Shown here piece by piece: positions 3,694-64,000 of a DNA stretch of 64,000 nt; the stretch's first letter is position 1, and each line of letters begins with the position of its first letter. This DNA is from Rhodobacterales bacterium 32-67-9. Its GTDB lineage: Bacteria > Pseudomonadota > Alphaproteobacteria > Rhodobacterales > Rhodobacteraceae. The position numbers and the translations under genes are program-made. The stretch spans positions 41,047 through 105,046 of the forward strand of contig NCEA01000005.1 of NCBI GenBank assembly GCA_002280515.1. The letters run 5' to 3'. The notes under the pieces are model-generated. The model was not told the origin of the DNA, did not search any database, and saw nothing but the letters and a program-made list of their open reading frames with translations.

Positions 3694-4044
3694 TCAGTCG
3701 CGCGGCAGATAGGCCACCGGCGCGTTCTCGTCGCGGACATAGTCGAGCGGCACCTTGTCATGCGCCACGGTGGACCGCTTCATCGTGCAGATGAGCTCCC
3801 CGGCCTCGACGCCCGAGGCGACGATCAGCGAAGTGTAGACATGCCGCGCCCCGTCATAGATATCGACAAGCCCGCGCAGGTGCTGCACCTGATCGGCGTC
3901 AAGCGCGAAGCCCGTCTCCCAGAATCGCAGGATCGGATAGACCTCGTCACCGGCCAGAACCCGCAACCGCGAGCGCCGGCGCAGATCGCGTTTGCGCGCC
4001 TCTTCCAGTCCCGCGCGCACCTCTTTCGGCAGATAATCAGACAT
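3694..4044 (-). CDS. Conserved hypothetical protein
   Basis: 116 aa, begins MSDYLPKEVRAGLEEARKR and ends in APVAYLPRD. ATG at 4044 is preceded by GGGGGAAGG at good spacing; the upstream in-frame extension lacks such a site. The N-terminal third is rich in Arg/Lys/Glu and probably helical, the rest looks mixed alpha/beta. No signal peptide or membrane segment. I do not recognise a named family; it looks like a short protein conserved in Rhodobacteraceae. The divergent-looking neighbour on the same strand upstream is a receiver-domain protein, with no evident functional link. Confidence 0.75.
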   Translation of the reverse strand: MSDYLPKEVRAGLEEARKRDLRRRSRLRVLAGDEVYPILRFWETGFALDADQVQHLRGLVDIYDGARHVYTSLIVASGVEAGELICTMKRSTVAHDKVPLDYVRDENAPVAYLPRD

Positions 4045-4185
4045 CGCACACCTTCCCCCGACGTCGAAGCATGAGCCGATCGTGGTGAAAATCAAGGTAA
4101 CCTTCTGGATTACAACGCCTCTGTCGCCAATCCGTTCCCCGAAAGCCACGCTATGCGCGACAACGCAACAATAGCGCCGGTACGG

Positions 4186-4548
4186 TCACTCCGTCGTGCC
4201 GTAATGCTCCACGACCGCAGCAAGGTCTTCAGGCGGCATCCGCGACGGCAGGAAGGCACAGGCATTGGGGATGTGCTGGAAGATCGACCCATCCGAGAAG
4301 AAGGTCGTGTTGGTGACGAAGATGACTTTCGCCCGCGGATGCCGGTAGCTCGCATAATCGGCCACCGCGATGGCGCTTCCTTCGCCGAGGATGAGGTCGA
4401 GCACGATAACCTCCACCGCCTCGCTCTCAAGATAGGCCACCGCGTCATCCTGACCCACAACAAGATGCACGCGCGCCGAAAACCTCTCGAGGTGACGTTT
4501 CCACAGCCAGCCGAGGTTCGGGTCACTTTCAACGATGAGAACACGCAT
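4186..4548 (-). CDS. Stand-alone response-regulator receiver domain, atypical
   Basis: 120 aa, a single receiver domain with no output domain, beginning MRVLIVESDPNLG. The phospho-acceptor is probably Asp51 (VIVLDLILGEG). The usual acidic pair at the N-terminus is reduced to the ESD at 7-9, and the conserved Lys near residue 102 is missing: the segment reads CAFLPSRM instead of the usual KP motif. It may therefore be phosphorylated poorly, or act by protein contact alone. GGGGG precedes the ATG at 4548. No histidine kinase gene lies nearby, so its partner must be elsewhere. Confidence 0.85.
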   Translation of the reverse strand: MRVLIVESDPNLGWLWKRHLERFSARVHLVVGQDDAVAYLESEAVEVIVLDLILGEGSAIAVADYASYRHPRAKVIFVTNTTFFSDGSIFQHIPNACAFLPSRMPPEDLAAVVEHYGTTE

Positions 4549-4721
4549 GGTAACCCCCGGAAACCGCCAGAGCAGTACGGTTCTGCCCTTCTTGTTGTTT
4601 TGTTAGAGAATCGTCAACAATGCTTAAGCAATTGTTAATGCCTGCCCCGCCGGGCAGGAATTCGCCCGTTGTTCCGGCCGATGACCGGCCGGAGGTGGCG
4701 GACGCAAGATCGGAGACCGAC

Positions 4722-5888
4722 ATGAGACGCCTGATTGCCCTCCTCGCCCTCTGCCTTGCCCCGGGGGCAGCACTTGCCTCCTGCGGCGGCGGCTTTGGCG
4801 ATTTCGTCGCCGGGCTGAAGGCCGAGGCGCGCGCCGCGGGGCATCCCGCGGATCGGGTGGAAGCCTTCTTCGCCGGTGTACGACAGGACGAAAGCGTGCT
4901 CCGGGCCGACCGGGCGCAGGGGGTCTTCCGCAAGAGCTTCATCGACTTCTCGCGCGCCGTCATCAGCGCGAACCGGATGCAGAACGGCCAGCGCAACGCG
5001 AAGGAATACGCCGGCACCTTCCGGAGGATCACCCGGGACTACGGTGTGTCACCGGGCGTTCTCCTTGCCTTCTGGGCGCTGGAGACCGACTACGGCGCGG
5101 TCCAGGGCGATTTCAACACGCTGAACGCGCTGGTGACGCTCGCGCACGATTGCCGGCGGCCCGAACTGTTTCGGCCGCAGGTCTTTGCCGCGCTCGAACT
5201 TTACCAGCGCGGGGATTTCGATCCGGCACGTACCAAGGGTGCCTGGGCGGGCGAGATCGGCATGGTCCAGATGCTGCCCGACGACATCCTCAGGAACGGC
5301 GTCGACGGCGATGGCGACGGCCATGTCGCGCTCAAGACCTCGCCGCCCGATGCGCTGATGTCGGGGGCGAAGATGCTGAAAGGGCTCGGCTGGCGGGCCG
5401 GCGAACCCTGGTTGCAGGAGGTCGTGGTGCCGGAGGGGCTCGACTGGTCGAAGACCGGGCTCAACCACGAAATGCCGGTCTCGGACTGGGCACGGATGGG
5501 GGTGAAGGGGCGGTCGGCTCCGCTCGCCTCGGGCTTGCGCGGCTCGATCCTCCTGCCGATGGGCCGCAAGGGGCCGGCCTTCCTCGCCTACCCGAATTTC
5601 CGCGTCTATTTCGAATGGAACAAGAGCTTCGTCTACGTCACCACTGCGGCCTATTTCGCGACCCGCCTCGAAGGAGCGCCGGTTTACGATCCCGGCAATC
5701 CCGAGCCCGGGCTGTCGGATGGCGACATGAAGAACCTGCAAAAGAAGCTCGCCGCGCGCGGGTACGATGTCGGCGCGATCGACGGCATTCTTGGCGAAAA
5801 GACCCGCGAGGCGGTTCAGAAGGAACAGGCCCGTCTGGGCCTGCCGGCGGATGCCTGGCCGACGCGGGCGCTCCTCGGCAAGCTCTGA
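4722..5888 (+). CDS. Lytic murein transglycosylase, MltB/SLT2 type, with peptidoglycan-binding domain
   Basis: 388 aa. ATG at 4722 gives MRRLIALLALCLAPGAALASC: a secretory signal with a possible lipobox (LASC, 18-21), so it may be an outer-membrane lipoprotein, although cleavage by signal peptidase I is also possible. The catalytic Glu is most likely Glu121 in AFWALETDYGAVQG, the MltB-type active-site motif. A C-terminal peptidoglycan-binding domain follows (about 325-388; LQKKLAARGYDVGAIDG, GEKTREAV). The enzyme cleaves the MurNAc-GlcNAc bond, making 1,6-anhydro ends in the periplasm. The frame is open to 4620, but that stretch lacks a signal peptide. Confidence 0.93.
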   Translation: MRRLIALLALCLAPGAALASCGGGFGDFVAGLKAEARAAGHPADRVEAFFAGVRQDESVLRADRAQGVFRKSFIDFSRAVISANRMQNGQRNAKEYAGTFRRITRDYGVSPGVLLAFWALETDYGAVQGDFNTLNALVTLAHDCRRPELFRPQVFAALELYQRGDFDPARTKGAWAGEIGMVQMLPDDILRNGVDGDGDGHVALKTSPPDALMSGAKMLKGLGWRAGEPWLQEVVVPEGLDWSKTGLNHEMPVSDWARMGVKGRSAPLASGLRGSILLPMGRKGPAFLAYPNFRVYFEWNKSFVYVTTAAYFATRLEGAPVYDPGNPEPGLSDGDMKNLQKKLAARGYDVGAIDGILGEKTREAVQKEQARLGLPADAWPTRALLGKL

Positions 5889-40416: not shown

Positions 40417-41697
40417 TCAGGGCGCCGCGACTTGCCGCAGGTCAGCGTCGAGACGGCCGGCCGCGAGAGCCGAAAGCGCAACCATCAGGGTAGCGGTTCC
40501 GAGCATCAGCCCCAACCCGCCGGCCTGATAGGCCACCCCGGACAGAAGCGTGCCGGCAAGGCGTCCGCCGGCATTGGCCATGTAGTAGAACCCCACGTCC
40601 ATGGTCACGCGCTCGGCATTGGTGAACGCAAGGATCAGGTAGGAATGGAGTGCCGAATTGACCGCGAAGACCGCGCCGAAGGCAAGCAGCCCCACGACCA
40701 GCAAGGCGGTCAGCCAGGGCTGTGGTCCCGGCGCGACCAGCGCCGCCGACGTCAGAACCGCAGGGATCAGCGCAAGCGCCCAGACCCAGCGCCGGGCGGC
40801 GGCAACGAGGTCCGCCTCGGGGCGGGTTGCCGCGCGCAGAAGTTTCGGCGCGGCGGCCTGCATGACGCCGTAGAGGATGATCCAGACTGCCATGAACGTG
40901 CCGATCATGAAGAAGGCGGCGCGGTTGCCCGCCACGGTGCCGTCCGAAAGCACCGCGTAGAAATAGATCGGGATCCCCACGACGAACCAAACGTCCCGCG
41001 CCCCGAACAGGAACAACCGCGCGGCGCAGAGCCAGTTGACGTTGGCGGACTTGGATAACACCTCGGAGAACTTCGCGCCCTTTCGCCCCTTCGGCAGCCC
41101 CGGAGGCATGGCGGCCAGCACGGCCACGAGGATGCCGGCAAGGACGAGCGCCATGGACAGCACGGCCCAGACGAAACCGACGCTGGCCAGAAGCGCCGCC
41201 CCGAGCAGGAACCCGAGCCCCTTCACCGCGTTCTTCGATCCGGTCAGCAGCGCCACCCAGCGGAAAAGCCCGCCGTCCTTCGTCGGCGCGAGCAGTTTCA
41301 CCGCTGATTTGGCGGACATCTTGGCAAGATCCTTGGCCACGCCCGAGGCCCCCTGCACCACCATGACATAGGCCACCGATAGGCCGGTCGCCCATCCGGG
41401 GTCGAGCTGCGCCAGCGCGATAAGCGCCACGACCTGAAGCGCGAGGCCCGCATAGAGCGTCGAGGTCAGCCCAAAGCGCGCGGCGATCCATCCCGCCGAG
41501 AGGTTGGTGGCCATTCCGGCGATCTCGTAAAGCACGAACAGGTAGGCAAGCTGCACCGGCGAAAAGCCGAGCGTGTGGAAATGCAGAAGCACCAGCATGC
41601 GCAGCGCGCCGTCGGTAAGCATGAAGGCCCAGTAGGCGGCGGTGACCGCGACATAGGCGCTCAGGCCCTCGGGGCGCACCGGGGCACGATCGGTCAA
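40417..41697 (-). CDS. arsJ: Organoarsenical efflux MFS transporter ArsJ
   Basis: 426 aa with about 11-12 membrane segments. Loops [20 protein letters not shown] and [11 protein letters not shown] are typical of ArsJ. ArsJ exports 1-arseno-3-phosphoglycerate, the unstable product made when GAPDH uses arsenate instead of phosphate; it then decays outside to arsenate. The gene overlaps the GAPDH stop (ATGA), and the same operon encodes an arsenic-responsive regulator, so the assignment rests on both sequence and context. Confidence 0.93.
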
Positions 41698-58563: not shown

Positions 58564-59886
58564 ATGCCGGTGGCAAGAGTGAAGAAAGACAAGTCGGAAG
58601 GCAGCGAAGCGCCCGTTGCCGCCGAACCTTCCGAATCCTTCGAGCCCACCGAAACCCAAGCCAGTGACGCCACCTCCGCCGAACCGGATCCGCCCCCGGC
58701 AGAGGCGCCATCCGAAAGCGGCGACCCCGTCGAAGAGGCCGTCGTCCTGGATGAGCCGGCGGCGACCGCACCCGCAGAGCACGCAGAAGTCCTGCCACCG
58801 CCACCGCCTGAACCCAGCGCGCCGCGCCGCAAGGGTGGTTTTTTCCCGATGGTTCTCGGCGGCGCCGTCGCCGCCGGCCTCGGCTTCGTCGCCGCCGCTT
58901 ACGTTCTTCCCCAGGTCTGGACCCCGAAACAGCCGGCTGCCGAAATCGCCGCCCTCCGCGACGAGATGGCTGCGCAAGCGACTCGGCTTTCCGGCCTTGA
59001 TTCCGATCTTGGCAGGGTGAAGGCCGATACGACCGCGCAAGATGCCGTCGCGGGACAAGTGACACTGGTTGAAAAGCTGACCGGCGAACTCGACACCCTC
59101 CGCCAGACCGTGACGGCGCTCGACGGCCAGTTGCAGGATCTGGCCGGGCGGTTCGATGGGCTCGACACGCGCCTGGCCGGGGTCGAGAAGCGCCCCGTCG
59201 ATGGTGGCGCGGCTTCCGCCACCGCGCTTGCGGCATTCGGGCGCGAGATGGCCGACCTCCGGGCCGAGATCGACACCCAGCGCAAGGCGGCTGCCCAGGC
59301 GCAACAGGATATAGCCGCCACAGCCTCCGCCGCGACCGAGAAGATCGGTGCGGCGGAAGCCGAGGCAAGCCGCCTTCGCGACGAAGCAGAGGCAGTGGCG
59401 AAGCGCGGCGCCGCCCGCGCGGCCCTCAGCCGCATTCAGGCGGCGCTGGAATCCGGCAGCGCGCTGGAAAGCGCCCTCGGCGATCTGGCCGCTTCCGGCG
59501 TTGATGTTCCCGCCGCACTTGCCGAACAGGCTCAGGGTGTGCCGAGCATCGGCGCCCTGCGCGCCGCCTTCCCGCCCGCGGCGCGAGAGGCTCTGGCGAT
59601 TTCGCTGAAGGAGACGGCCGGGGGCGGCACCTGGAGCCGGGTCACGGCCTTCCTGCGCAGCCAGTCAGGAGCGCGCTCCCTCAGCCCGCGTGCCGGCGAG
59701 GATCCCGACGCGATCCTGTCGCGGGCCGAAGCGGCCTTGACCGCGGGCGCACTGGCCACGGCCATCGAGGAAATCGCGCATTTGCCGCCGGAAGGTCAGG
59801 CCCGGATGGCCGAATGGGTCGACATGGCGAAGCGACGGATCGCCGCCATCGACGCCGCGGCCGCGCTTGCGAAGGAACTTCAGTGA
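58564..59886 (+). CDS. mic60: Mic60/mitofilin-family inner-membrane protein
   Basis: 440 aa. N-terminal Pro/Glu/Ala-rich cytoplasmic part (1-about 90), one membrane helix (FPMVLGGAVAAGLGFVAAAYV, about 95-115), then a periplasmic coiled coil (about 125-300) and a C-terminal mitofilin-like domain. Alphaproteobacterial Mic60, homologue of the mitochondrial crista-junction protein, shapes inner-membrane folds. Position hemD-mic60-hemY is conserved in the class. AAGGAGAGT precedes the ATG. Confidence 0.9.
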   Translation: MPVARVKKDKSEGSEAPVAAEPSESFEPTETQASDATSAEPDPPPAEAPSESGDPVEEAVVLDEPAATAPAEHAEVLPPPPPEPSAPRRKGGFFPMVLGGAVAAGLGFVAAAYVLPQVWTPKQPAAEIAALRDEMAAQATRLSGLDSDLGRVKADTTAQDAVAGQVTLVEKLTGELDTLRQTVTALDGQLQDLAGRFDGLDTRLAGVEKRPVDGGAASATALAAFGREMADLRAEIDTQRKAAAQAQQDIAATASAATEKIGAAEAEASRLRDEAEAVAKRGAARAALSRIQAALESGSALESALGDLAASGVDVPAALAEQAQGVPSIGALRAAFPPAAREALAISLKETAGGGTWSRVTAFLRSQSGARSLSPRAGEDPDAILSRAEAALTAGALATAIEEIAHLPPEGQARMAEWVDMAKRRIAAIDAAAALAKELQ

Positions 59887-59893
59887 GGAAATC

Positions 59894-61375
59894 ATGATCT
59901 GGTCCTTCGTCAAAATCGTCCTGTTCGTTGCTGTCGTCGCCGGGCTGACGCTGGGTGCCGGTTACCTCGCCGAGACCGGCAGCGGCGTCCGTATCGCGCT
60001 CGCCAACATGGAATTCACCCTCGGCCCGGTGCAGATGGTGATCGCGGTCCTCGTCGCGATCCTTGCGCTCTGGCTCCTGCTCAAGATCGTCGGGCTGATC
60101 GTCGCGGCCTTGCGGTTCGTGAACGGGGACGAGACCGCGCTCAGCCGCTATTTCGACCGCAACCGTGAACGCAGGGGCTTTCAGGCGCTGGCCGATGGGC
60201 TGATGGCGATCGCATCTGGCGAAGGCCGTGTGGCACTATCGCAGGCGGCGAAGGCCGAGAAATATCTCGGCCGGCCGGAACTGACGAACCTGATCGCGGC
60301 GCAGGCGGCCGAACTTGCCGGCGACACCAAGCGTGCGACCGAAGTCTACAAGCGCCTGCTGGCAGACGACCGCACCCGCTTCGTCGGCGTGCGCGGGCTG
60401 ATGAAACAGAAGCTTGCCGAAGGCGACACGGAAACCGCGATGAAGCTCGCCGAAAAGGCGTTCTCGCTGAAGCCGAAGCATCAGGGCGTTCAGGACACGC
60501 TGTTGCAGCTTCAGGCCGAGAAGGGCGACTGGAAGGGCGCGCGGAACGTTCTGGGCGCGAAGCTGAAACAGGGTCTCTTGCCGCGCGATGTCTTCAAGCG
60601 TCGCGACGCCGTGCTGGCCCTACAGGAGGCGAAGGAGGTCTTTTCCGACGATGCCCCCATCGAGGCACGCGAAGCGGCCATCACCGCGAACCGCCTGTCG
60701 CCCGACCTGATCCCCGCCGCAGTTCTCGCGGCGCGTGGCTACGTGCAGTCGGGAAAGCCGAAATATGCTGCCCGCGTCCTGAAGAAGGCGTGGGAAGCGC
60801 AGCCGCATCCCGACCTCGCCGCTGCCTTCGCCGCCATCGCCCCGGACGAATCGCCCGCCGCGCGGCTGAAGCGGTTCGAAACTCTGCTTTCCGCCAATCC
60901 GGGCCACGAGGAAGCGAAACTGCTCCGTGCCGAGTTGCAGATCGGGGCCGAAGATTTCCCGGCCGCGCGCCGCGCGCTTGGCGATCTGGCCGAAACCCAT
61001 CCGACCTCGCGCAGCCTGACGGTGATGGCGGCCATCGCGCGGGGCGAGGGGGCGGACGATGCCGTCGTCAGGGGCTGGCTGACGCGCGCCCTGACCGCCA
61101 GCCGCGGCCCGCAGTGGATGTGCGAGAAGTGTCACAACGTCCAGTCCGACTGGGCGCCGACCTGCGACAATTGCGGCGGCTTCGACACGCTCGCCTGGCG
61201 CGAACCGCCGCACAGCGCGACACCGATGCCGAACGGCGCCGACATGTTGCCGCTGATCGTCGGCAGCGCCGCCGAGCCAGCAGAGGACGCCGCGCTCGGC
61301 CTGCCGACAAACACGACGGGGGACGAGCCGGAAGAGGCGATCATCCTCGACGAGGAAGTCGGCCAGCGCAGTTGA
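59894..61375 (+). CDS. hemY: HemY-like TPR membrane protein with zinc ribbon
   Basis: 493 aa. Two N-terminal hydrophobic segments (IVLFVAVVAGLTLGAGYLA; VIAVLVAILALWLLLKIVG), then a helical TPR-type repeat region typical of HemY_N proteins. Near the C-terminus CEKC and CDNC, 13 residues apart, form a zinc ribbon like that of LapB. ATG at 59894 follows GAGGAAATC. Linked by context to haem synthesis and envelope function; no enzyme activity is known. Confidence 0.9.
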   Translation: MIWSFVKIVLFVAVVAGLTLGAGYLAETGSGVRIALANMEFTLGPVQMVIAVLVAILALWLLLKIVGLIVAALRFVNGDETALSRYFDRNRERRGFQALADGLMAIASGEGRVALSQAAKAEKYLGRPELTNLIAAQAAELAGDTKRATEVYKRLLADDRTRFVGVRGLMKQKLAEGDTETAMKLAEKAFSLKPKHQGVQDTLLQLQAEKGDWKGARNVLGAKLKQGLLPRDVFKRRDAVLALQEAKEVFSDDAPIEAREAAITANRLSPDLIPAAVLAARGYVQSGKPKYAARVLKKAWEAQPHPDLAAAFAAIAPDESPAARLKRFETLLSANPGHEEAKLLRAELQIGAEDFPAARRALGDLAETHPTSRSLTVMAAIARGEGADDAVVRGWLTRALTASRGPQWMCEKCHNVQSDWAPTCDNCGGFDTLAWREPPHSATPMPNGADMLPLIVGSAAEPAEDAALGLPTNTTGDEPEEAIILDEEVGQRS

Positions 61376-61458: not shown

Positions 61459-61497
61459 GCCGGTGTAGCTCAGCTGGTAGAGCAGGTCATTCGTAAT
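61459..61497 (+). pseudogene. 5' half of a disrupted tRNA-Thr(CGT) gene
   Basis: Acceptor strand GCCGGTG, D-arm TAGCTCAGCTGGTAGAGCA and anticodon loop TTCGTAA (anticodon CGT) are canonical; the gene then stops matching. No T-arm with TTCGA and no CACCGGC-CCA 3' end follow. The break falls in the anticodon stem-loop, a known integration site class for tyrosine recombinases. Confidence 0.8.
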
Positions 61498-61525
61498 GTG
61501 AAAAACCCACCAACATGCGGTGGTA

Positions 61526-61590
61526 TTTGACCGGCATTACCTAACAAAATCAGGCGCTTGACCAATTTCCGGTTGGGTTTGACCGGTGTT
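61526..61590. repeat. Direct repeats TTTGACCGGNNTT, possible integrase arm sites
   Basis: TTTGACCGGCATT (61526-61538) and TTTGACCGGTGTT (61578-61590) differ at two positions and lie between the broken tRNA and the integrase fragment. A CCACC / GGTGG hairpin (61507-61523) precedes them. Confidence 0.5.
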
Positions 61591-61640
61591 GGAACGTATC
61601 GTGAACCTTGCAAAAATCATCGGTTTGCAAGGACACGAGA

Positions 61641-61847
61641 ATGCCCAAGATCAAGTTCACGGACACCGCCGTTGAGAAGCAGTGCATCGCGCACGACGGC
61701 AAAACGACCTGGTACTCGGACACGGAAACGAGGGGCTTGCAGCTCTGCGCAACGGCCGGGGGTGCGAAGACCTGGTATCTCAACAAGTGGGACCCGACGG
61801 CTAAGAAGGTCCGGCGCGTGAAGCTCGGGCAGTTCGCGACGAAAGGC
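61641..61847 (+). pseudogene. N-terminal fragment of a tyrosine integrase
   Basis: ATG at 61641 opens with MPKIKFTDTAVEKQ, then TRGLQLCATAGGAKTWYLN and VKLGQFATKG: the arm-binding (DUF4102-like) domain of P4-type integrases. After about 69 residues the frame enters unrelated sequence, so the catalytic domain is gone. Confidence 0.8.
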
Positions 61848-61944
61848 CACCGGCAATCCGGTTCTTGGCGTGCAGCTTCAAGCCGATGTGGTCCAGCAGA
61901 GCAGCCAGTTCCTCGGGCGACGCGAAATCCGCTTCCGCCTTCAT
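61848..61944 (-). pseudogene. Truncated small gene coupled to the resolvase
   Basis: ATG at 61944 overlaps the resolvase stop (ATGA). It reads KAEADFASPEELAALLDHI and GLKLHAKNRIAGG, then crosses at about 61847 into the antisense of the integrase fragment and soon stops. No family recognised. Confidence 0.5.
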
Positions 61945-62525
61945 GATGCCCTCTGGCCCCGCTCAGCGCCCTCGTGAGCCTGAAGTACCCGATAGACGGA
62001 TGCGCGGCCAAGCCCCAGCTTTCGAGCGATCTCCGTCGCTCCTGTGCCCTCTCCATGCAGCGCAAGCACCTCCTTGGCCTTCGCCCTCGCAGTCGGTTTT
62101 CTCCACCGATACTTACCCGCAGCCTTGGCTTTGGCGATCCCCTCACGCTGCCGTTCAAGCATAATCTCCCGCTCGAACTCAGCGATCCCGCCAAGCACGG
62201 TCAGCATCAGCTTCCCGGTAGGCGTGCCTGTGTCGATCCCCATCGCAAGGATGCGCAGGCTCGCGCCCTTGACGGCCAGCCGGTCGAGTATTTCCAGCAG
62301 GTGCGAAACGGAGCGGGCGAGGCGATCCAGCCGTGTGACGATCAGCGTGTCGCCCTCTCGCACATAGTCCAGGGCTTCGGTCAATCGTCCCCGCGCGGCG
62401 ACATCCACAGAGGACACCTGCTCCAGGAACACCTTCTCGCAACCGACCTTCGCAAGTTCCTCAAGCTGGGCCACCAAACCCGCCTTCTGGTCAAGCGTCG
62501 AAGTTCTTGCATATCCGATGAGCAT
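61941..62525 (-). CDS. Tn3-family serine resolvase
   Basis: 194 aa. Catalytic Ser9 in YARTSTLDQ, LIVTRLDRLARS and GGIAEFEREIMLERQREG are resolvase landmarks; C-terminal helix-turn-helix (TGATEIARKLGLGRASVYRVL). Complete and apparently intact. No Tn3 transposase is seen in the window, so this is either a remnant or part of another element. A res-like site lies directly upstream. Confidence 0.93.
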   Translation of the reverse strand: MLIGYARTSTLDQKAGLVAQLEELAKVGCEKVFLEQVSSVDVAARGRLTEALDYVREGDTLIVTRLDRLARSVSHLLEILDRLAVKGASLRILAMGIDTGTPTGKLMLTVLGGIAEFEREIMLERQREGIAKAKAAGKYRWRKPTARAKAKEVLALHGEGTGATEIARKLGLGRASVYRVLQAHEGAERGQRAS

Positions 62526-62537
62526 GAGGGCCTTCCT

Positions 62538-62632
62538 GTCTCATTAGGTTCTAAGAGATTAGGAGGCAGAATGTCTCAAAAGTCAATTGCCATTTTATTG
62601 AGACTGGCTTGGGGCGCTCCGGCGCTGTCTCA
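62538..62632. promoter_or_regulatory. Candidate res site: four GTCTCA elements
   Basis: GTCTCA at 62538, 62573 and 62627 and its complement TGAGAC at 62599. The middle pair forms GTCTCAA / TTGAGAC around 18 bases, the size of a resolvase dimer site. Lies just upstream of the resolvase start, where res is found in Tn3 elements. Confidence 0.5.
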
Positions 62633-62697
62633 CAGGGGCAAGCCCTAGTGGGCGACAAAAGTTGAGTAACAACCAACGCCCCGGTCGTTCGCGCCGA

Positions 62698-63060
62698 ATT
62701 CCCCTGTTCGAGGTCCCACAGATAGTGGATGTTTCCGTTGCTGAGGATCACGAAGCGGGCGTTCTGCGATCGAGCATATTTCCGAGCCTACTCTTTCGCC
62801 GAAAGCGGGTTCTTGTCCTCGGACTTGGCCTCCAAGACGATCAATGGCTTCCCGCGCCCATCCAGTAGTAAGAAATCTACGAAGCCTTTGGCGGCCTTCT
62901 CAAGGTTGTCCCCAAGGGAGTGCAGCCGCTCCGGTGTCAGCTTCACGTTCGGTTCAAGGACGATGTTCGCTGGCCCAGCGGCCTCATCGAAAAAACGCCA
63001 CCTGGCTTGTTCGAGCAGCCGGTTGATCTTGATCCGGGCTGTCGCCTCTTTCTGAACCAA
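62698..63060 (-). pseudogene. Fragment of type I restriction enzyme HsdR
   Basis: ARIKINRLLEQARWRFFDE, NIVLEPNVKLTPERL and PLIVLEAKSEDKNPLSAKE are the HsdR N-terminal nuclease domain with its catalytic D-E-K. A TAG at 62788-62790 stands where a Gln codon is expected; the frame then continues ARKYARSQNARF and HYLWDLEQGN before losing similarity at about 62698. So it has a stop and a 3' truncation. Confidence 0.75.
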
Positions 63061-63232
63061 AACAATGTCTCCGACTGAACCTATCCTCCTTATGTCGGAT
63101 GGAGGTCCGCCTACAAAGCGCAAAGTGGTTGATACATAGGGCCTGAGCACCGCCTTGGGTGGATATCAGGGTGGATTGATTGAGGCAAAATGGCCGCAAG
63201 ACACAGAAGAGTAAAAATAAAATGTGAAAATG

Positions 63233-63308
63233 TGGTGCCTCAAGAGGGACTCGAACCCCCGACCTACTATTTACGAAACAGTTGCTCTACCAGCTGAGCT
63301 ATTGAGGC
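63233..63308 (-). tRNA. tRNA-Thr(CGT)
   Basis: 76 bases including encoded CCA. Acceptor GCCTCAA / TTGAGGC, D-arm TAGCTCAGCTGGTAGAGCA (same as the broken copy at 61459), anticodon stem ACTGT / ATAGT with one G-U, loop TTCGTAA (CGT), T-arm GGGGG-TTCGAGT-CCCTC with one G-T pair, discriminator A. Reads ACG. Lies inside the mobile region. Confidence 0.95.
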
Positions 63309-63315
63309 GGCGACC

Positions 63316-63331
63316 CGTCGTTTAGACGACG
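63316..63331. terminator. Hairpin upstream of the tRNA
   Basis: CGTCGT-TTAG-ACGACG, perfect 6-bp stem between the HNH-like gene end (63355) and the tRNA 5' end (63308) on the minus strand. Confidence 0.35.
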
Positions 63332-63354
63332 AGCCGCTGCCGTGCAAGGCCGAA

Positions 63355-63807
63355 TCACCACGGGATGTCGTCGTCGCCATCATCGGGCGACGGTGCGGGC
63401 CAGTCCGAGTCGAACCAGTCCTTCTTCTCACGGTTCATGTCTTGTGAGATTGCCCGAAGGTTCCAAGGGACGTGCAGGCCGCAGACAACCTGTTTGCGCT
63501 CGCGCGTTGCCAGCCACGTTTTCCGACTGATGCCGACTAGCGGGACGAAGTGGTCGCCTGCGAAAGGCCCGCCCGCGATCTCGCTGAGATCGACTACCTG
63601 CTGGTAGACGGCGATGTTCGCCGCTTCCTGTTCTGCGGTCAGCCAAGGCGGGACGGCATCGCCTGCGCGATAGGCGGCGCTGTCAGCCATGCGCTTCGCC
63701 GCGTTGCGCGCGTAGTACCTCTGATCTTTGGTCATCGCCTTCAACGATGCCTCGCGCGCGGCTGCGCGCTGAGCCTCATACTCGGTGGTCTCGCGTTCGG
63801 CCTCGGC
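63355..63807 (-). pseudogene. HNH-like protein gene, 5' end replaced by an insertion sequence
   Basis: About 150 codons remain. GPFAGDHFVPLVG and CGLHVPWNLRAISQDMN resemble phage-type HNH proteins (DHxxPL ... CGLHxPWNL). The frame stays open to 63891, but bases beyond about 63807 belong to the IS end, so the native start is lost. Ends PDDGDDDIPW. Confidence 0.6.
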
Positions 63808-63837
63808 GGGGCGTTGTTGCAGAACTCTGGCCCTCAA

Positions 63838-63856
63838 GGATTCACATTGTGAATCC
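63838..63856. promoter_or_regulatory. 19-bp palindrome with two GANTC sites before the transposase
   Basis: GGATTCACA-T-TGTGAATCC is a perfect palindrome containing GATTC and GAATC, both CcrM methylation sites, 20 bases before the transposase ATG. Confidence 0.55.
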
Positions 63857-63875
63857 ATGCGGTTAGACGGGCGGC

Positions 63876-64000
63876 ATGAGCAAGCCATCACCCGCCCGCT
63901 GCCGCACGACGAACTGGTCCAGCTACAATGCGGCGCTGAGGAAGCGCGGCGCGCTGCTGATCTTGTTGGACAAGGAGATGGCCTGGCACGCGCCGCATGA
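63876..64000 (+). CDS. IS5-family transposase (N-terminus only)
   Basis: 41 codons visible, cut by the window end. RCRTTNWSSYNAALRKRGA and LLILLDKEMAWHAP match the N-terminus of IS5-group transposases (RTTNWxxYNxALxxRGxLxxWLD). The DDE domain is beyond the edge. Confidence 0.85.
   Translation, partial: MSKPSPARCRTTNWSSYNAALRKRGALLILLDKEMAWHAPH

Follow-up and report, generated by a model that had tools for sequence, protein, structure and literature searches.

The window, as we use the term here, is the whole 64 kb stretch of DNA that was analyzed: positions 41047–105046 of contig C53 in a genome (G000) of 3.72 Mb, assembled in 60 contigs and 93.6% complete. Towards its right-hand end lies a hemY-like TPR gene (59867–61375, + strand), recognized by Pfam HemY_N (1.6e-21) and, under that model's own cut-off, by TIGR00540 (7.6e-27). 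This gene adjoins tRNA-Thr(CGT) in relatives of the same genus, and it serves as the conserved left neighbor that marks the resident tRNA-Thr(CGT) site. Here it is followed by the 5′ half of that tRNA gene (61459–61499, + strand), the ortholog of which is intact in relatives. The half comprises the acceptor strand, the D-arm and the anticodon loop, and breaks off three bases beyond the loop; past 61499 the sequence diverges from the intact relatives compared, and gives way to unrelated DNA. An earlier interpretation made from the letters alone (the 'sequence-only reading') had described a resident gene reduced to its 5′ half up to the anticodon loop, and in this it was right.

The only tRNA that ARAGORN calls in the 64 kb lies further along, on the opposite strand. 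It is a complete tRNA-Thr(CGT) (63233–63308, − strand; 69.9 bits with the Rfam tRNA model), and the same 76 bases occur in an element of a genus relative (G012). As first reported, it shares its anticodon with the half but has a different acceptor stem, GCCTCAA versus GCCGGTG. The D-arm and anticodon loop are common to both genes and form an inverted match of 31 nt (87%). The sharing of the D-arm, on which the sequence-only reading had remarked, is thus real but of no special significance, since the genome's own tRNA-Thr(TGT) shares it too. Immediately upstream of the complete gene is a block (63309–63356, − strand) that recurs with other element-borne copies; tRNA and upstream sequence together are 87% identical to those of the G012 element over 158 bp. 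By eye, a CTTG...TTTAAAC-like block precedes several other element-borne copies as well, and the block in the window is probably the promoter of the complete tRNA.

Between the half and the complete gene lie pieces of several kinds. The DNA that follows the break (61500–61640, + strand) corresponds to the left end, or attL arm, of an integrated element, and includes a 26-nt direct repeat (61509–61534 and 61561–61586; 77%). Elements in two other genomes (G042 and G181) have left ends that match the segment 61454–61833 at 75.5% and 76.6% identity. Some 140 bp past the break begins the N-terminal fragment of a tyrosine integrase (61641–61847, + strand), within an ORF that spans 61608–61946, and so the integrase fragment and repeats that had been noticed behind the break are indeed there. 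About 70 codons remain. By tblastn the fragment is 53–61% identical, over 65–80 residues, to seven integrases of elements that we call type A (types A, B and C are names coined in this analysis and explained below), and 45–61% identical to all 17 integrases compared; likeness to type A ends near 61847, and a Pfam and NCBIfam scan of the fragment by itself gave no match. Just past the end of this similarity sits a serine recombinase of the resolvase/invertase type (61941–62525, − strand; Pfam Resolvase, 5.4e-41, and HTH_7), followed by a fragment that weakly resembles the N-terminus of a type I restriction subunit R (62788–63150, − strand; HSDR_N, E 0.032, below cut-off). DNA from 62699 to 63302 is 83% identical to DNA adjoining tRNA-Phe in a relative (contig C94 of G018). 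Beyond the tRNA is a phage-type endonuclease-like ORF (63355–63891, − strand; phrog_26577), a neighbor that the tRNA also has in the G012 element, where the endonuclease-like gene belongs to the same family; DNA from 63604 to 63809 matches the elements of G012 and G360. The start of this ORF runs into the end of an insertion sequence (63810–64000, strand unassigned), in which the contig stops. Copies 96–99% identical lie at the ends of contigs C45, C43, C32 and C38, and a copy 85% identical on C30 carries DDE transposase domains.

Because the left end, integrase, tRNA block, restriction fragment and insertion sequence match different sources, the window appears to hold a decayed, composite island. 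Its left end and integrase fragment are of type A, and its complete tRNA and endonuclease-like gene resemble type B. More than one element contributed, and the original carrier of the tRNA is uncertain, since 62699–63302 also matches DNA beside tRNA-Phe. The far end of the island, and any 3′ half that lies there, are out of sight because the contig stops inside the insertion sequence, and so the window displays only half of the proof. The far side could not be placed elsewhere in the assembly: pairwise comparison of downstream ORFs from 12 loci gave no match at E 1e-8, and comparison of such ORFs with five contig-end stretches of the window's genome gave one weak match (30% over 152 aa, on C38), 5 kb away from the insertion sequence. 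A search of that genome with a related terminase, run without a positive control, likewise found nothing of the remainder of the element. Among 2603 plasmid records that match the window segment, none covers 80% of it; for the 15 that were listed, the similarity falls on the serine recombinase, on the restriction-like fragment or on an integrase.

For tRNAs as a whole, the genome has 38 matches, among which ARAGORN identifies a single gene each for Thr(CGT), Thr(TGT) and Thr(GGT), a census that rests on an assembly of 60 contigs and 93.6% completeness. The sequence-only reading had asked for other intact Thr(CGT) genes, and none was found in the assembly: 63233–63308 is the only complete one detected. 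Leaving aside a match to Thr(TGT), a pattern search that allowed up to three mismatches detected no further copy of the 5′ half in the genome, and a detached 3′ half was likewise not found in the assembly.

Relatives display the resident site in its intact form. When 22 genomes of the genus were searched, 21 had a match, one of them to Thr(TGT) only, and the hemY-like protein was then used to compare the remaining 20 loci. In 13 of the 20, a Thr(CGT) gene that is complete by ARAGORN stands directly behind hemY on the same strand (HemY identity, 69–94%), and its acceptor is invariably of the GCCGGTG or GCCGCTG type. Two more genes are complete, one behind a weak hemY match (G004) and the other with no hemY in the DNA examined (G014). 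Broken 5′ halves occur at four loci (G000, G012, G016 and G001), and in G017 what appears by eye to be a decayed half is followed by a complete tRNA on the opposite strand, likely a fossil of the same kind of event. We considered whether the complete gene in the window might be the ancestral chromosomal copy, and the half a chance or duplicated fragment. One genome (G237) does have, at the hemY site, a GCCCCAA gene with the anticodon arm of the window's complete copy, and such alleles can therefore be residents elsewhere. The 13 complete genes behind hemY in the genus are of the other two types, however, and it follows that the GCCTCAA copy is not the ancestral gene of the genus. In 15 elements of other genomes (described below), moreover, the halves fit each other, and where acceptors differ (as in G102) they do not fit the inner copy. 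An ancestral origin is accordingly extremely unlikely.

It is also very unlikely that the contig is a chimera of unrelated pieces joined by assembly error. A repeated insertion sequence terminates the contig, and the assembly is fragmented into 60 contigs, circumstances in which such errors might arise, but the left junction is 75–77% identical to junctions in independent genomes, Tabrizicola sp. SY72 among them, and the arrangement of a half gene followed by a tRNA on the opposite strand recurs in G012.

What the window lacks can be seen in relatives. Fifteen genomes of the Rhodobacteraceae, in the broad sense, have on one contig a 5′ half, an element of 5.2–23.9 kb, a 3′ half, and between the halves a complete Thr(CGT), so that a counterpart of the missing 3′ half that the sequence-only reading hoped to locate, although not found in the window's own assembly with its unassembled far end, is present along with its partner in all of these. 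When the two halves were joined by script, ARAGORN called a tRNA-Thr(CGT) in 15 of 15 cases, each with seven of seven acceptor pairs. Since the script itself placed the halves at the anticodon loop, the evidence consists in the acceptor pairing and in identity to residents: 12 of the 15 joined sequences equal an intact resident sequence (one of six distinct intact sequences from 23 loci). One genome (G130) has two 3′ halves, and the one that paired best with the resident half was used. A common core of 8–16 bp is present in 14 of the 15; the exception, G204, has a right end without TTCGTAA. None of the junctions of the 15 elements contains a rebuilt tRNA gene. ARAGORN called the inner tRNA in every one of the 15 (the copy in G137 has no encoded CCA) and called no other, so that the sole tRNA of these elements is Thr(CGT), the very isotype of the disrupted gene. 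The inner copy of G102 has an acceptor of the GCCGCTG type and the halves have one of the GCCTCAA type; with acceptors that differ in this way, the inner copy cannot have arisen by rebuilding of the resident gene. No half gene was seen to lack a complete Thr(CGT) counterpart, although such cases may have been overlooked, as genomes with a single match were covered only at the loci retrieved.

These observations lead us to conclude, with a probability of roughly 85%, that an integrative element broke the Thr(CGT) gene beside hemY, that the element's own complete copy replaces the broken gene, and that the window preserves a decayed composite of the result. According to this account, an element would enter the tRNA-Thr(CGT) behind hemY by way of the anticodon arm, leaving the 5′ half at one of its ends and carrying the 3′ half to the other. 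Integration would not rebuild the gene, because the attachment core is only about 8–16 bp in the relatives, and the complete tRNA-Thr(CGT) of the element, equipped with its own upstream block, would take over the resident's job. The element-borne tRNA is presumably both expressed and needed. That the element supplies a replacement instead of rebuilding its target was the central proposal of the sequence-only reading, and it gains support from the lack of any other intact Thr(CGT) in the assembly and from the same design in relatives.

The further suggestion, that the arrangement acts as an addiction device in which the element persists since its loss removes an essential tRNA, fares less well. 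It has in its favor that no complete Thr(CGT) other than the element-borne copy was found, and that ACG accounts for 304 of 843 Thr codons (36%) in 46 ORFs of the window chosen by codon bias, although Thr(TGT), which the genome also has, might read ACG. In all 15 relatives, however, joining the halves gives an intact tRNA-Thr(CGT), and precise excision should therefore restore the gene; only imprecise loss, such as a deletion, would cost the cell its tRNA and be punished. This weakens the addiction idea as it was stated, and we regard it as unlikely. In the window, furthermore, the swap is probably permanent, because the integrase is truncated, and recombinase, restriction fragment and insertion sequence lie among the parts; with the 3′ half also unlocated, this copy looks locked in rather than like an active device.

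Phage-borne tRNAs are common, and the complete tRNA might instead be ordinary phage cargo, carried to boost translation or to escape tRNA-cutting defenses, and matching the broken isotype by chance. The phage-type endonuclease-like gene beside the tRNA in the window suits such an origin, as does the PrrC-like gene that one related element carries. Two findings speak against it. The sole tRNA in each of the 15 two-ended elements is of precisely the isotype that is broken; and the tRNA is intact even where the integrase is truncated (G000 and G361) or where none matches the integrases searched (G016 and G204). We judge mere cargo to be quite unlikely, and somewhat less likely than addiction. Replacement of the resident gene by an element-borne copy remains the preferred reading.

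The elements that exhibit this design fall into three architectures. In type A, the integrase, where present, is beside the 5′ half, and the replacement tRNA is near the right end, on the same strand. Members are G042, G181, G355, G358 and G137, the last with a left end that is 72% identical in DNA to that of the window, together with G016 and G204, which have no match to these integrases. In type B the integrase is beside the 3′ half, and the replacement tRNA is near the left end, on the opposite strand (G012 and G361, and G360, where the ends are on different contigs). In type C the replacement tRNA lies about 90–100 bp inside the left end, on the same strand, to give a tandem of a half gene and a whole one. 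Thirteen such tandems were aligned, and in six of them (G102, G130, G152, G188, G200 and G257) the resident 3′ half occurs 10–24 kb downstream; of the other seven, the contig ends first in five (G001, G159, G172, G239 and G304), and two (G182 and G191) were covered to the tandem only. We considered whether the tandems might be mini-elements of 125–136 bp, or duplications; for the six, the distant 3′ half rules this out.

The elements differ in what they carry. Five elements of types A and B (G042, G016, G012, G181 and G204) have in common a block that includes a terminase-like protein, and three of these (G012, G181 and G204) also share a portal-like protein; the G012 element encodes, in addition, a primase-like protein and an excisionase-like regulator. 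With lengths of 5–15 kb, elements of types A and B resemble satellites or remnants more than they do complete phages. Two type C elements were annotated. That of G102 encodes an integrase, a VapE-like protein and, together with a cytosine methylase, a NaeI-type restriction enzyme, and that of G188 an integrase, a type I restriction system and the PrrC-like gene; near-identical integrases thus travel with different defense cargo. No phage structural domains were found with Pfam among ten proteins from two type C elements. The integrases of the type A and B elements have no relatives in IMG/VR, and one that was compared with phage records has none there either, so that no phage carrier is known; relatives of the portal protein occur in 1596 of 50,697 phage records, all at less than 60% identity.

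The pattern emerges as well from a search that is blind to the tRNA. Three integrases (search A1) retrieved 19 loci, in hosts that include Tabrizicola, Roseovarius, Tropicibacter, Dinoroseobacter, Roseisalinus, Silicibacter and other Rhodobacteraceae. A broken Thr(CGT) lies beside the integrase at 10 of the 19, and each of these 10 genomes contains a further Thr(CGT) that is complete; it shares a contig with the 5′ half in eight of them and lies on a different contig in two (G356 and G357). Six of the remaining loci adjoin an intact tRNA-Lys(TTT) or tRNA-Thr(TGT), and three adjoin a 3′ fragment of Thr(TGT), from which we conclude that the integrase family also includes apparent target-rebuilders; for the six beside intact tRNAs, no displaced fragment was found within the DNA retrieved. 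A Roseovarius locus (L148) was considered as a case of broken Thr(TGT) and set aside, as the presence of a complete Thr(TGT) at a distance of 30 kb agrees with an ordinary island that rebuilds its target. The integrases of the relatives have Phage_integrase and Arm-DNA-bind_3 domains, and the window retains the N-terminal fragment only. In a tree of 17 integrases, those of type A form one group (89/89) and the two of type B another (100/100). Between G102 and G188 the type C integrases are 91% identical; the G102 integrase is only 23% identical to one of type A (E 1e-7).

How widespread this is was gauged by a pattern search for half-tRNAs over 295 genomes of the family, from 294 genera. Three or more matches occurred in 24 genomes, of which 18 have a broken Thr(CGT), and one with two matches (G181) brings the number to 19. 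At least 19 of the 295 genomes, then, have a broken Thr(CGT), a figure for which single-match genomes were only partly read. Several configurations depart from the simple picture. In G359, half and complete gene are identical in sequence, the complete copy having the resident's own sequence; in G202, a half with one changed base accompanies a complete gene with nearly the same upstream sequence. In two genomes (G246 and G162) the stretches retrieved contain two complete copies but no half, and in another (G189) both matches are at contig edges.

One genome, G159, shows signs of replacement upon replacement. A resident half of the GCCTCAA type is followed by a type C copy (GCCGGTG) with a break of its own in the anticodon arm, and then, about 1.1 kb further in and on the opposite strand, by a complete GCCCCAA copy, an order that suggests nesting. 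Two other genomes are compatible with serial replacement, and do not prove it: G130 has an extra 3′ half with no 5′ partner, and G334 has a broken element-type tRNA along with a complete one of resident type. It is possible, although we would put it at somewhat less than even odds, that the tRNA-Thr(CGT) of the Rhodobacteraceae is a site of serial takeover, at which elements with distantly related integrases—defense islands and satellite-like elements alike—have repeatedly broken the copy in charge and installed their own, sometimes one within another, the replacement outlasting the element that brought it.

Judged from sequence, the system appears to work like the tRNA-dependent lysogeny of mycobacteriophages Fionnbharth, LeBron, Gaia and others (Guerrero-Bustamante and Hatfull, mBio 2024, PMC10865867). 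Common to both are a tyrosine integrase, an attB within a tRNA gene, a core of about 10 bp, a tRNA that is not rebuilt, and an element that carries a full tRNA of the same isotype; in both, too, there exist related integrases whose elements rebuild the tRNA (PMC10865867) or, in the present family, seem to. The hosts here are Rhodobacteraceae, whereas those described in that work are Actinobacteria (PMC10865867). The carriers here, in contrast to those phages, are of 5–24 kb; phage packaging genes are present in some of them and restriction systems in others, and there are signs of serial replacement, and decayed copies, known from sequence alone. What seems to be new, then, are the hosts, the defense islands and satellite-like carriers, and the signs of serial takeover.

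Three other bodies of work are close. In Sinorhizobium meliloti, also of the Alphaproteobacteria, phage-related sequences and genomic islands replace an inactivated tRNA gene with a divergent, element-borne tRNA of the same kind (Int J Mol Sci 2024, PMC11476347). Hosts and target genes are different there, and the portions of that paper on which we draw describe neither nesting nor Thr(CGT); according to a sister paper, phiLM21-like prophages do rebuild the tRNA (PMC12429752). In Rhizobium leguminosarum, replacement has been proposed for tRNA-Leu: vTRX32-1-like phages share a 12-bp core with the tRNA-Leu that they interrupt and bring a whole tRNA-Leu with them (PMC8631192). These are podovirus-like phages of 42–45 kb, and the phage tRNA is without the core motif (PMC8631192), whereas several element tRNAs here keep CATTCGTAATG. 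Canonical tRNA-targeting islands (Islander, PMC4383910) resemble the present elements in having a tyrosine integrase, a tRNA-gene target and a crossover centered on the anticodon, but they carry a tDNA fragment that rebuilds the gene (PMC4383910), and the elements here do not. A search of the open-licence literature brought up neither this Thr(CGT) site nor serial replacement, which falls short of establishing that they are absent from print.

How common the strategy is beyond actinobacteriophages was said to need further work (PMC10865867). The present case adds recurrence at a single gene in no fewer than 19 of the 295 family genomes sampled, in three architectures, and by elements that are not obvious phages. 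It comes with a signature that can be scanned for in sequence, two half genes and one foreign whole gene, and the relatives with full-length integrases allow direct tests of the need for the tRNA and of excision. A core gene of translation has here been made replaceable by mobile DNA and, if serial takeover is true, the tRNA-Thr(CGT) of the family would be largely of mobile-element origin.

In the window, the DNA adjoining the replacement tRNA-Thr(CGT) gene (63233–63308, minus strand) is 83% identical, from 62699 to 63302, to DNA flanking a tRNA-Phe gene in a relative (locus L203, G018:C94), a match that would fit the use of both tRNA ends by a third island. The integrase remnant (61641–61847, plus strand) is adjoined by a serine recombinase gene (61941–62525), and similar recombinases are carried by plasmids of Methylobacterium and others.

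Relatives display several other arrangements of these genes. Behind hemY in G017 (L189, ~1390–1538), a decayed 5′ half accompanies an intact tRNA-Thr(CGT) on the opposite strand, a pair that is likely a fossil. In G334 (L116, 7484–9076), a complete resident-type gene lies 1.5 kb after a broken element-type one. The insertion in G159 (L248, C19, 4849–6160) is nested: the resident half is followed by a broken copy of type C (replacement tRNA just inside the element's left end) and then by a complete copy on the opposite strand. Two further genomes, G246 (L249/L250) and G162 (L251/L252), each possess two complete copies, on different contigs, and no half gene was seen in these fetched stretches.

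One type C element, in G188 (L262, 5100–12409), combines the replacement tRNA with a type I restriction system that is accompanied by a PrrC-like anticodon-nuclease gene (PADLOC, 2.8e-127). Its integrase (3729–4970) is 91% identical to that of the type C element in G102 (L253, 4527–5762), and the restriction cargo of the two differs, as though defence genes had been exchanged behind one integration module.
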